Positions 637-62,067 of a stretch of DNA of 64,000 nucleotides are shown piece by piece. The DNA lies in the NCBI RefSeq assembly GCF_003605575.1, contig NZ_QKNY01000003.1, positions 62,001 through 126,000 on the forward strand. Reading direction: 5' to 3'. Positions within the stretch are counted from its first letter, which is position 1, and each line of letters starts with the position of its first letter. This DNA comes from Halonotius aquaticus (GTDB lineage: Archaea > Halobacteriota > Halobacteria > Halobacteriales > Haloferacaceae). The notes beneath the pieces were generated by a model. It saw only the letters and a list, made by a program, of their open reading frames with translations. It ran no database searches and had not been told where the DNA came from. The translations under genes and the position numbers were made by a program.

Positions 637-1311
637 TCAGGCTACAGCCTCATCAACCGGCTCAACCCGAATCGACCGCGCAACGGATTCAGGAAGGCTC
701 TGTTCGTCGCCGCTGGCGGTTTCGACGGTAATCATCCCGAACGGCGCGATATCGGTGAGTTCGAGCTCCGTCCCCGGCGTGATGCCGGCCGCTTCGAGAT
801 AGGTCAACTCTTCCTCGTCGCGGTCGCTAACGCGGCTGACGACGACGTGGTCGCCGGTCTCAAACTCGGTGAGTCGGACGGCATCGTCGCCTTCGATCGG
901 GTCGAGTTCGACACCCGGAATCGGATCGCCGTGGGGGTCGACAGTCGGGTTATCGAGGGCCTCGGCGACGCGGCGTTCAAACTCCTCAGAGATGTGGTGT
1001 TCTAAGGCGTCGGCCTCCTCGTGTACCTCGTGCCAGTCGTAATCGAGGTGTTCGGTGAGATACGTTTCCAGCAGGCGATGGTGGCGAATCACCTCTAAGG
1101 CGACAGTTTCGCCCTCCGCGGTCAACTCGACGCCCTTGTACTTCTCGTGGTCGATAAGGTCGTTTTCGGCCAGCGAACTCACCATGCTGGTGACCGTCGG
1201 CGGGGTCTTCTCAAGATACTCCGCGATTTCGGAGGTCGACACCGGCGGCCCGCCCTCGGTCTGAAGGACGTAAATCGCTTTCAGGTAGTCCTCCATGGTG
1301 TCGCTGAACAT
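637..1311 (-). CDS. sirR: DtxR/MntR-family metal-dependent transcriptional regulator
   Basis: This is a 224-residue three-part repressor: N-terminal winged helix (about 1-65, SEIAEYLEKTPPTVTSMVSS recognition region), dimerisation/metal domain (about 70-140), and a C-terminal FeoA/SH3-like domain (about 150-220). Such regulators bind Fe(II) or Mn(II) and then repress uptake genes. In the metal segment DALEHHIS, the position that is Cys in DtxR and Glu in MntR is Asp, so the preferred metal cannot be read from sequence. It stands alone on the minus strand. Two DtxR-type operators occur far away in this window (52725-52772) and could be targets of this or another family member. Confidence 0.88.
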   Translation of the reverse strand: MFSDTMEDYLKAIYVLQTEGGPPVSTSEIAEYLEKTPPTVTSMVSSLAENDLIDHEKYKGVELTAEGETVALEVIRHHRLLETYLTEHLDYDWHEVHEEADALEHHISEEFERRVAEALDNPTVDPHGDPIPGVELDPIEGDDAVRLTEFETGDHVVVSRVSDRDEEELTYLEAAGITPGTELELTDIAPFGMITVETASGDEQSLPESVARSIRVEPVDEAVA

Positions 1312-51787: not shown

Positions 51788-52024
51788 ATGGTGACCCTGT
51801 ATGCGCTCGATGGGTGTCCGTACTGCGAAAACGTCCACGACGCCCTCGACGACAACGATATCGACTACGAGACGAGCTGGACAGACCCGCTTCACTCCGA
51901 TCGCAACGATGTCAAACGCGTCAGCGGGCAGCGAAGCGTCCCCGTCATCGTCGACGAGGAACGCGGTGTGACGATGGCCGAAAGCGAAAATATTCTCAGC
52001 TTTATCGAACGGAGTCTGGCATGA
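51788..52024 (+). CDS. Glutaredoxin-like protein, 78 aa
   Basis: The compact thioredoxin-fold protein has the CPYC active site (ALDGCPYCENVHDAL) near the N-terminus and cis-Pro in QRSVPVIVDEERGVTM, the two core glutaredoxin features. Haloarchaea use gamma-glutamylcysteine rather than glutathione, so it probably works with that thiol. It overlaps the adenosyltransferase gene by 4 bp (ATGA), so the two are co-translated. A link to keeping cobalamin or the enzyme reduced (Co(II) to Co(I)) is an attractive but unproven reading. Confidence 0.9.
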   Translation: MVTLYALDGCPYCENVHDALDDNDIDYETSWTDPLHSDRNDVKRVSGQRSVPVIVDEERGVTMAESENILSFIERSLA

Positions 52025-52548
52025 CGATCTACACCGGCCGCGGCGACGAGGGACTCACGGATCTGCGGGATCGCTCGCGGGTGTCGAAAACGAACGTCCG
52101 GATCGAAGCCTACGGCGTTGTCGACGAGGCCAACTCGCTGATCGGCCGGGCGCGACCGACCGGTTACGACGATGTCGACGACTGGCTGGCCGGCGTCCAA
52201 AACCACCTCCATATCATCCAAGCGGAGTTCTCGATGCCGGAGGCCGACGATCCCTCGATCGAGGAGGCCCACGTCGAAGAAGTCGAAGACTGGATCGACA
52301 CCGCTGATGAGGAGCTTGACCCGCTCACCGAGTTCATCCTGCCGGGTGGCAGCGACAGCGGGGCAGCACTCCATCACGCCCGGTCGGTGACCCGGCGGGC
52401 CGAGCGGCGGGCGGTTGAACTCGCCAACAATGAACCGATCAACGCCGAGGCGTTGGTGTATCTGAATCGGCTCTCGGACGCACTGTTTACGTTCGCGCGA
52501 CTGGTCAACTCACGCGACGAAATCCCTGAGGAATCGCCAAGCTACTGA
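52021..52548 (+). CDS. pduO: Cob(I)alamin adenosyltransferase, PduO type
   Basis: The 175-residue enzyme transfers the adenosyl group of ATP to Co(I) corrinoid, making coenzyme B12. Motifs: TGRGDEGLTDL (ATP loop at the N-terminus), VDEANSLIGRAR, ILPGGSDSGAALHHARSVTRRAERR (the arginine-rich signature) and LNRLSDALFTFARLVN. Its product is needed by the methylmalonyl-CoA mutase encoded in part at 9936. It overlaps the glutaredoxin gene. The 324-bp spacer after it holds the iron-box-like repeats. Confidence 0.94.
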   Translation: MTIYTGRGDEGLTDLRDRSRVSKTNVRIEAYGVVDEANSLIGRARPTGYDDVDDWLAGVQNHLHIIQAEFSMPEADDPSIEEAHVEEVEDWIDTADEELDPLTEFILPGGSDSGAALHHARSVTRRAERRAVELANNEPINAEALVYLNRLSDALFTFARLVNSRDEIPEESPSY

Positions 52549-52724
52549 GCAGTGCTGATCAGTGCTCGCCATTCAGTCGAAGAGAACCCGGCGACGACCG
52601 ACGGGACAGACGGGCGGATGACGGTCGTCGCGGTGCGGATGATGCCAACGATGCCGTCGGTGACACGACGGAGGCGATACGATGCGGTCGCAACGGAAGC
52701 AGGAATCCGTCGGCGACCGTATTT

Positions 52725-52738
52725 TTAGGTTTGCCTAA
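52725..52738. promoter_or_regulatory. DtxR/IdeR-type iron box 1
   Basis: The sequence ttaggtttgcctaa carries the inverted half-sites TTAGG and CCTAA of the DtxR/IdeR operator. It lies 34 bp before a second copy, which would be on nearly the same helix face. Confidence 0.6.
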
Positions 52739-52758
52739 TCCAATGTATAGGTTTCGGT

Positions 52759-52772
52759 TTAGGCGAGCCTAA
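52759..52772. promoter_or_regulatory. DtxR/IdeR-type iron box 2
   Basis: The sequence ttaggcgagcctaa has perfect 6-bp arms (TTAGGC/GCCTAA) around GA. A TATA-like cctaaata overlaps its right half, so binding would hide a rightward promoter. Confidence 0.65.
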
Positions 52773-52872
52773 ATAGTGCGTGGCCGAACGCGGTTCGTCA
52801 CCTCCCCCAGCGTGGGCGGCGATATCGCGGAGAGAAGCCTTTAAGTCCAGCCGAGTGTGAGTTTTCGCTGTC

Positions 52873-52947
52873 GGGTCGGTGGTCTAGTCTGGTTATGACG
52901 GCTCCTTCACACGGAGCAGGCCGACGGTTCAAATCCGTCCTGACCCA
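52873..52947 (+). tRNA. tRNA-Val (CAC anticodon)
   Basis: The 75 nt fold as a cloverleaf. Acceptor gggtcgg pairs with ctgaccc (one G-T) plus discriminator A; the D arm contains ggtctagtctggttatgacg; anticodon stem gctcc/ggagc encloses loop ttcacac, giving anticodon CAC; the TpsiC arm has ggttcaaatcc. CCA is not encoded. The TATA-like cctttaag lies about 30 nt upstream. Confidence 0.95.
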
Positions 52948-53112
52948 TTCGATTTCTTGCGCGTTTGAAGGAGTAAGCCGACAGGCTCGCGGTCAATGCA
53001 GCAGTCACAGCAGCAGGACTGACCAGCTTCGCGCAGCCGTCGGCAACAAGGATACTAGGGTCTCCTCACTGAGTCGAACGCAGCCGGGAGAGACTGCCGT
53101 CGAAACCGATAC

Positions 53113-60908: not shown

Positions 60909-62067
60909 CACTGACGAAATAGAGTCAGTACGAATTTTCGACACGACGCTGCGTGATGGCGAACAGTCACCACGCACCTCGTTTGATTACAACGACAAAC
61001 GCGCCATCGCCGAGCTGCTGGACGAGATGGGCACCCACGTCATCGAGGCTGGGTTCCCCGTCAACTCCGACCCCGAGTTCGAGGCCGTCTCGGACATCGC
61101 GGCGGCGACCGATGCGACGACCTGCGGGCTCGCCCGCGTCGTCGAGAAGGACGTCCAAGCGGCGATCGACGCTGGCGTCGACATGGTGCACATCTTCGTT
61201 TCGACGAGCGATGTGCAGCTCCAAGACTCGATGCACGCAAGCCGCGAGGAGGCGGTCAACCGCGCGGTCAAAAGCGTCGAGCAGGTTCGCGATGCGGGCT
61301 TGGAGGTCATGTTCTCGCCGATGGATGCGACTCGCACCAACGAGTCGTTCCTCGTCGAGGTCGTCGAGGCGGTCAGCGAGGCCGGCGTCGATTGGATCAA
61401 CATCCCCGACACCTGTGGCGTCGCAACCCCAACCCGGTTTGCGAAGCTCATCAGGCTTGTCGGCGAACACACCGACGCCCGGATCGACGTCCACACCCAC
61501 GACGACTTCGGGCTGGCGACCGCCAACGCGATGTCGGGCTTCGAGGCCGGCGCCCACCAAGCGCAGGTCTCGGTCAACGGCATCGGCGAACGCGCGGGCA
61601 ACGCGGCCTTCGAGGAGGTCGTCATGTCCGCCGAGAGCCTCTACAACGTTGACACCGGCATCGACACGACCCGAATCACCGAGCTGGCGAAGCTCGTCGA
61701 GGAGAAGTCGACGATCCCGATCCCGGTCAACAAGGCGGTCGTCGGCGACAACGCCTTCGCCCACGAAAGCGGCATCCACGCCGCGGGCGTCATGGAGAAC
61801 ACCGACACCTTCGAACCCGGCGTGATGACCCCCGAGATGGTCGGCGCGTCCCGGGAGTTCGTCCTTGGGAAACACACCGGCACCCACTCGGTTCGGAAAC
61901 GCTTGGAGGAGCTCAACTACGAGCCCAGCGATTCGGAGGTTCGGGCGGTCACCAAACTCGTCAAAGAGTTCGGTGCCGAGAAGGAGCAGGTCACCGACAG
62001 CGTGATCGCGCGCTTCGCCGAGGAGGTCGGTGTCAGCGAGATCGACTCAGAGGAGGTACGGGTCTAA
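60901..62067 (+). CDS. leuA: 2-isopropylmalate synthase / (R)-citramalate synthase family enzyme
   Basis: The 388-residue (from TTG 60901) DRE-TIM metallolyase begins TNTDEIESVRIFDTTLRDGEQSP, where DTTLRDGEQ carries the metal and catalytic residues. HVIEAGFPVNSD, VDVHTHDDFGLATANA (the HxH metal pair) and NGIGERAGNAAFEEVVM follow. It condenses acetyl-CoA with a 2-oxo acid, for leucine or, via citramalate, isoleucine. It lacks the C-terminal regulatory LeuA dimer domain (520-residue form), so feedback control by leucine at the protein is doubtful. The start is uncertain (see the frame at 60837). ilvB follows. Confidence 0.88.
   Translation: MTNTDEIESVRIFDTTLRDGEQSPRTSFDYNDKRAIAELLDEMGTHVIEAGFPVNSDPEFEAVSDIAAATDATTCGLARVVEKDVQAAIDAGVDMVHIFVSTSDVQLQDSMHASREEAVNRAVKSVEQVRDAGLEVMFSPMDATRTNESFLVEVVEAVSEAGVDWINIPDTCGVATPTRFAKLIRLVGEHTDARIDVHTHDDFGLATANAMSGFEAGAHQAQVSVNGIGERAGNAAFEEVVMSAESLYNVDTGIDTTRITELAKLVEEKSTIPIPVNKAVVGDNAFAHESGIHAAGVMENTDTFEPGVMTPEMVGASREFVLGKHTGTHSVRKRLEELNYEPSDSEVRAVTKLVKEFGAEKEQVTDSVIARFAEEVGVSEIDSEEVRV

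Follow-up and report, generated by a model that had tools for sequence, protein, structure and literature searches.

Two palindromes of the type read by DtxR-family iron regulators lie between the end of pduO and a tRNA gene in Halonotius aquaticus, which raises the question of what they control. We addressed this question for a stretch of 64,000 nucleotides (positions 62,001 to 126,000 of contig NZ_QKNY01000003.1, hereafter the window) and for related genomes. The reading that we favor, with a probability of roughly 0.86, is that the two boxes are the operators of a gene for an iron-responsive, trans-acting, iron-sparing antisense sRNA under DtxR-family control. The neighbours are those of the original prediction (pduO ends at 52548 and tRNA-Val(CAC) begins at 52873), and the pair of boxes between them is real, both being exact and spaced by 34 bp from start to start:

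52021 to 52548, plus strand: pduO-type cobalamin adenosyltransferase (PF01923, E 7e-54), convergent to the predicted RNA
52725 to 52738, minus strand: box 1, TTAGGTTTGCCTAA, exact match to TTAGGN4CCTAA, adjoining the predicted RNA start
52759 to 52772, minus strand: box 2, TTAGGCGAGCCTAA, exact match, upstream of the BRE
52873 to 52947, plus strand: tRNA-Val(CAC) (ARAGORN, Rfam)

The exact palindrome TTAGGN4CCTAA occurs twice in the window and in none of 100 dinucleotide shuffles. Allowing two mismatches gave five sites against 5.3 expected, which is the chance level, and consequently the exact form alone is informative. Over the whole 2.47-Mb genome eight exact sites were found, compared with none for the reversed control pattern. 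All of the six other sites are located in loci with iron-transport or iron-storage genes (gene names being a reading of the translations), namely four in a Fe-type ABC transporter cluster (L031), one between DpsA-like and sensor-like genes (L032) and one ahead of an ABC-transporter ATPase gene (L033). With respect to this recurrence of the palindrome at iron loci of the same genome, the boxes fit the DtxR-family type of operator. The genome encodes two DtxR-family proteins over the Pfam cut-off as candidate regulators. One of the two (PF01325, over cut-off) is encoded in the window itself (637-1311, minus strand) and may be the protein that reads the boxes. In the available text of PMC11349517, iron genes of Halobacterium and Haloferax are regulated by the DtxR-family proteins Idr1/Idr2 and Idr/SirR/TroR.

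The four congeners examined (G002 being N-masked beyond box 1) and other genera have retained both boxes at this position. Most searches required box 1, so that the homologs have it by design, but it was found independently in the syntenic relatives; a second box at the spacing seen in the window, directly upstream of the BRE, occurs in 19 of 43 homologs.

If the favored reading holds, operators in a spacer with no annotated target can point to an RNA gene that annotation has missed. The block to the left of box 1 is conserved, hairpin-forming and non-coding, and the following features were assigned there and to the promoter:

52745 to 52756, minus strand: BRE (CGAAAC) and TATA (CTATAC) of the leftward promoter, their spacing to box 1 being constant among 43 homologs
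about 52724 to about 52580, minus strand: predicted small RNA, its start placed by promoter spacing and hairpin
52685 to 52719, minus strand: 5' hairpin of the RNA, with compensatory pair changes and a folding z of -5.1 for the window sequence
52640 to 52650, minus strand: ferredoxin element CGTTGGCATCA, antisense to TG-ATG-CCA-ACG
52591 to 52631, minus strand: hairpin with the aconitase element in its loop, a 10-bp stem read from the sequence and in the consensus fold of 5 congeners
52603 to 52611, minus strand: aconitase element GTCTGTCCC, antisense to GGG-ACA-GAC of ATGGGACAGAC

Alignment of 43 homologs on box 1 (G002 was left out because of N) revealed a BRE-like A-rich block at about -20 to -15 and a T-rich TATA at -12 to -8 ahead of the box. 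At the usual archaeal promoter spacing the RNA would start at about the first base after box 1 (52724 of the window, minus strand), and the 5' hairpin begins five bases beyond this predicted start. Compared with dinucleotide shuffles, the segment behind the box folds better: among 53 distinct homologs the median z is -1.70 and 58% lie below -1.5, vs -0.05 and 8% behind 91 other boxes, with a Mann-Whitney p of 5e-14 that is optimistic because the homologs are related. Furthermore, 3 of the 13 hairpin pairs changed on both sides within the genus of the window (5 congeners), and in Halobacterium compensatory changes were found in 2 of 8 pairs. The hairpin signal is weak or absent in the three f5 members, L006 and L159, and hairpin length and element order vary among the homologs. 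Downstream of the 5' hairpin no folding signal was observed relative to shuffles (median z -0.47), and the unpaired probabilities of the two elements, 0.51 and 0.55, exceed the 0.37 of the remaining RNA by a modest margin only. A search of positions 52500-53100 against Rfam (E up to 5) returned no match other than the tRNA, neither RyhB nor any other family. A guide RNA of the C/D or H/ACA type, prompted by a GATGATG string, was considered and rejected, as no D box was seen and no Rfam match was obtained.

At least 44 haloarchaeal genomes, drawn from five families (f1, f4, f5, f7 and f12), carry box, hairpin and both elements together, and the laboratory species Halobacterium salinarum is one of the carriers. 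A box followed after 22-52 bases by CTGTCCC is present in 47 of 392 genomes of the order vs 2 of 392 for the reversed pattern. Thirty-five of the 47 were judged homologous by hairpin and elements, and 12 were dropped by eye as non-homologous (G089, G122, G172, G180, G182, G197, G214, G290, G324, G361, G363 and G383). The set for the target tests (n = 44) comprises 34 of the 35 (without G355), eight genomes identified by synteny (G000-G004, G025, G026 and G031) and two by other patterns (G204 and G298). tRNA-Val(CAC) lies within 1.5 kb at 25 of the 28 homologous loci scanned, two non-homologous loci that were also scanned being outside this count. In H. salinarum the order of tRNA-Val, box, RNA and convergent pduO is that of the window, the box lying at L121:1129-1142 and the predicted RNA start at 1143 on the plus strand, and in genus g55 (family f4) similar RNAs are encoded away from tRNA-Val with reversed element order (three loci). 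Named genomes gave 19 matches, 17 of them haloarchaeal (including Halobacterium salinarum, Halorientalis, Halosimplex and Halorubellus); the other two (L128, L133) are Acetobacteraceae records with a box and GTCTGTCCCA, likely by chance.

Further patterns were less selective. CCGTGGGCATCATC alone was matched exactly in 27 of 293 genomes, five times beside a box, and the other 22 genomes were dropped, most of their matches apparently lying within genes. A box with GGCATC occurs in 99 of 392 genomes, many of these hits being iron genes, and only clear cases were used. A box-free pattern of the two elements was found in 11 of 293 genomes, eight of which were known already (the others being G006, G011 and G205). 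Genus g14, in which a box is followed by TATGTGGCGG...GATGGCATC, was rejected as a carrier of the sRNA, the box preceding an ABC-transporter ATPase gene at the one locus read. Since the strict patterns miss most sampled genomes, the RNA is either patchy in its distribution or more diverged than these searches reach. At L147 and L156 (G363 and G172) a box is followed by a hairpin and CTGTCCCGAACATCATCC, divergent from a gene resembling an iron-sulphur repair protein; this is perhaps a variant of the RNA.

The general form of the ferredoxin element is CCGTGGGCATCA, of which the window carries the version CGTTGGCATCA. It reads as antisense to a start codon followed by Pro-Thr, which we take to be the beginning of the haloarchaeal [2Fe-2S] ferredoxin. 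This ferredoxin was found in 44 of 44 genomes and starts with ATG CCN ACN GT in all of them. In the window genome the element forms 11 contiguous pairs with its own ferredoxin start (L175); over the 44 genomes the contiguous Watson-Crick match between own RNA and own ferredoxin start averages 11.5 bases, and in 43 of them it is 9 bases or longer. At the third position of codon 2 the genomes differ (CCC, CCA, CCG and CCT), and the RNA carries the complement in 44/44 (43/44 under another tie rule, owing to G191). Codon 3 is matched by the RNA in 39/44; among the five misses, G143 and G204 are matched by a second element, G193 could form a G-U pair, and G002 and G004 are unmatched. Single deviations are followed as well: G193 has the only CCT among five genomes sampled in its genus and its RNA has the matching A, and G143 has the only ACC among seven sampled Halobacterium and one matching element. 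On the ferredoxin gene tree the codon-2 base changed about six times.

For a statistical comparison, partners were shuffled among the 42 genomes that synteny or the CTGTCCC pattern had yielded; the patterns behind G298 and G204 include letters of the ferredoxin element, and these two were therefore left out. The summed pairing of 481 was reached in 0 of 20,000 shuffles (maximum 427), a procedure that ignores kinship. The pairing with the own ferredoxin exceeded that with every ferredoxin of another class in 26/42 genomes and was at least equal in 38/42. In three Halobacterium loci (L109, L111 and L112) two ferredoxin elements were observed in the RNA, one ending before the A of the start codon and the other reaching past it.

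For the second element, GUCUGUCCCA, 16 genomes were scanned with TGGGACAGAC, and 3 of 30 matches read were ATGGGACAGACGCT, encoding MGQTLTEKIL, presumably the start of aconitase. Aconitase was found in 43/44 genomes (none in G004) and its start could be read in 42 (not in G359). In the window genome the element forms 9 contiguous pairs with its own aconitase start (L271); over all readable starts the pairing extends over 8-13 bases with a mean of 10.6, and over at least 9 in 38/42. In G384, G296 and G229 an ACA at codon 4 is accompanied by a matching T in the RNA, giving 13 pairs, and in G000 (the window genome) and G001 the ACA is unmatched and the pairing ends there. Partner shuffling reached the observed value in 74 of 20,000 trials, a weak test because the aconitase start is nearly invariant. 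As a control, 431 other ATG starts of the same genomes were compared with their own RNA, resulting in a mean of 5.9 pairs and in at least 9 pairs for only 11 starts. RNAduplex energies did not single out the targets in the window genome, 66 of 165 window starts being as good as ferredoxin and 91 of 165 as good as aconitase. Taken as a product of evolution, the pairing of the predicted RNA with the ferredoxin and aconitase starts is well supported by these genome comparisons.

Other explanations of the boxes have to be weighed against the iron-sparing sRNA. A DNA search of 60 relatives gave matches in 59, mostly to pduO or the tRNA; in the congener G001 the match spans the entire spacer, in G003 and G004 it continues through both boxes, and in G025, of another genus, both boxes are present. 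In G003, G004 and G025 a small DUF7553 gene (PF24430) is located between box 2 and the tRNA, and it is absent from the window genome (52773-52872) and G001, where it appears to have been lost while relatives kept it. The boxes might therefore belong to this rightward gene and have been orphaned by its loss. In all three genomes the gene has its own TATA-like sequence near its start, other relatives have the gene but not the boxes (L009, L014), the leftward RNA also occurs in families that have one box only, and it is the left side that holds the conserved block. The window genome and G001 lack the gene yet keep both boxes, which therefore serve another purpose, and we consider control of DUF7553 very unlikely. 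Siderophore genes were not seen here in any of the relatives examined, so that the earlier idea of a remnant from a deleted divergent siderophore operon was abandoned, and long-range control, also proposed, is not needed. The spacer was moreover said to hold no gene to control, which is incorrect, the controlled gene being the predicted RNA on the pduO side. Strong support exists for the third proposal, a promoter for an iron-regulated small RNA: the locus is conserved, the promoter layout and the RNA structure fit, and there are two mRNA partners, of which one covaries with the RNA. Upstream of the DUF7553 start in L003, L004, L009 and L021 we observed GGACAGATATG, a sequence similar to the complement of the aconitase element.

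A small iron-regulated protein encoded by the left block would be in line with the one open frame on the minus strand of the window sequence. Across 10 loci, however, none of the three minus-strand frames is conserved, because of small indels, and the hairpin and the two antisense elements are conserved instead, which makes such a protein extremely improbable. We give equally little credence to orphan boxes combined with accidental complementarity: elements of 9-11 bases do occur elsewhere in a genome, and the 11 control starts mentioned above pair over 9 bases, but more than 40 genomes share the same two partners and show synonymous changes that the RNA matches, and covariation and shuffles contradict chance. 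A different objection accepts the RNA and its pairing with both starts and supposes that it activates or stabilises the mRNAs or is itself controlled by them. Pairing alone indeed gives no sign of the effect, and stabilisation of targets by some archaeal sRNAs is described in the accessible part of PMC5867862. Against this, the start codon itself lies under both elements, so that pairing should prevent initiation, and the two targets encode iron-sulphur proteins, as would fit sparing under an iron-repressed promoter; we regard this alternative as unlikely.

The iron-sparing sRNA would work as follows. In the presence of iron, a DtxR-family repressor of the Idr/TroR type would occupy box 1 and box 2 and keep the gene off. 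At box 1 it would sit between TATA and start site and thereby block initiation, and box 2 adjoins the BRE. When iron becomes scarce the repressor would leave, and an RNA of roughly 130 nt, with the 5' hairpin and two short elements, would be made leftward from about 52724. The elements would pair with the ferredoxin mRNA around codons 1-3 and with the aconitase mRNA around codons 1-4, covering the start codons, blocking initiation on both mRNAs and thus sparing iron.

RyhB, PrrF and FsrA are iron-sparing sRNAs of bacteria, for which aconitase is a classic target. The locus shares with this class an operator of iron-repressor type at the promoter, complementarity to the starts of iron proteins and a non-coding, structured and conserved product. 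By analogy, the predicted RNA is best explained as a functional counterpart of bacterial RyhB/IsrR, RyhB-type RNAs and IsrR being its closest analogues. Like RyhB, PrrF, FsrA and IsrR it is predicted to be trans-acting and to combine an iron-repressor box with exposed elements against iron-protein mRNA starts. Unlike them it is archaeal, has a DtxR-type box instead of a Fur box and no Rfam match, would cover the start codon and first codons, and shows synteny with tRNA-Val; no Hfq-type helper is known here. MrsI of Mycobacterium tuberculosis is an iron-sparing sRNA under the DtxR-family regulator IdeR and is not known to have the same targets; it would share both iron sparing and DtxR-family control with the predicted RNA, in an unrelated organism.

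For IsrR of Staphylococcus, the authors of PMC9410917 write that common targets are regulated by unrelated sRNAs. Archaeal sRNAs with targets include sRNA154, sRNA162 and sRNA41 of Methanosarcina and sRNA132 (phosphate) and s479 (zinc) of Haloferax volcanii, of which sRNA154 and sRNA41 mask ribosome-binding sites (PMC5867862, PMC11218638 and abstracts, as far as these texts were accessible). The predicted RNA resembles all five in being a trans-acting archaeal RNA tied to nutrient or metal supply; in those excerpts none of the five is described as controlled by an iron box or aimed at ferredoxin and aconitase. The boxes fit the type of the Idr1/Idr2 and Idr/SirR/TroR network, for which the available text of PMC11349517 names no small RNA. 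An archaeal iron-sparing sRNA was not found in the literature searched, as far as its text was available (including PMC11349517, PMC7002113, PMC5892119, PMC11218638, PMC12186497 and PMC5867862), and a mention in the primary Idr/TroR papers is possible.

We hold it quite probable that this is the first iron-sparing sRNA of Archaea, a RyhB-like regulator invented independently in haloarchaea under DtxR-family control, directed as antisense against the ferredoxin and aconitase start codons, re-tuned with the synonymous drift of ferredoxin, with the element order swapped in some lineages and a second ferredoxin element added in some Halobacterium. If so, the iron-sparing sRNA principle would extend to Archaea, DtxR-family regulators would gain an indirect means to lower iron proteins, and antisense control at start codons would become directly testable. 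Targets of archaeal sRNAs are few and hard to find, according to the accessible part of PMC5867862; here a single RNA is predicted in at least 44 genomes together with its two targets, the sites of pairing and the boxes that control it, with natural compensatory changes as evidence.

Two minor points concern the aconitase target. In Haloferax mediterranei, acnA is reported to be the sole protein of the tricarboxylic acid cycle that increases during denitrification, as does a DtxR-family repressor (available text of PMC11218638). In the window genome a heavy-metal-binding (CopZ-like) gene (L216, G000:C9:77661) starts with ATGGGACAGACGATT, which has 9 bases in common with the aconitase target and is either a third target or a coincidence.
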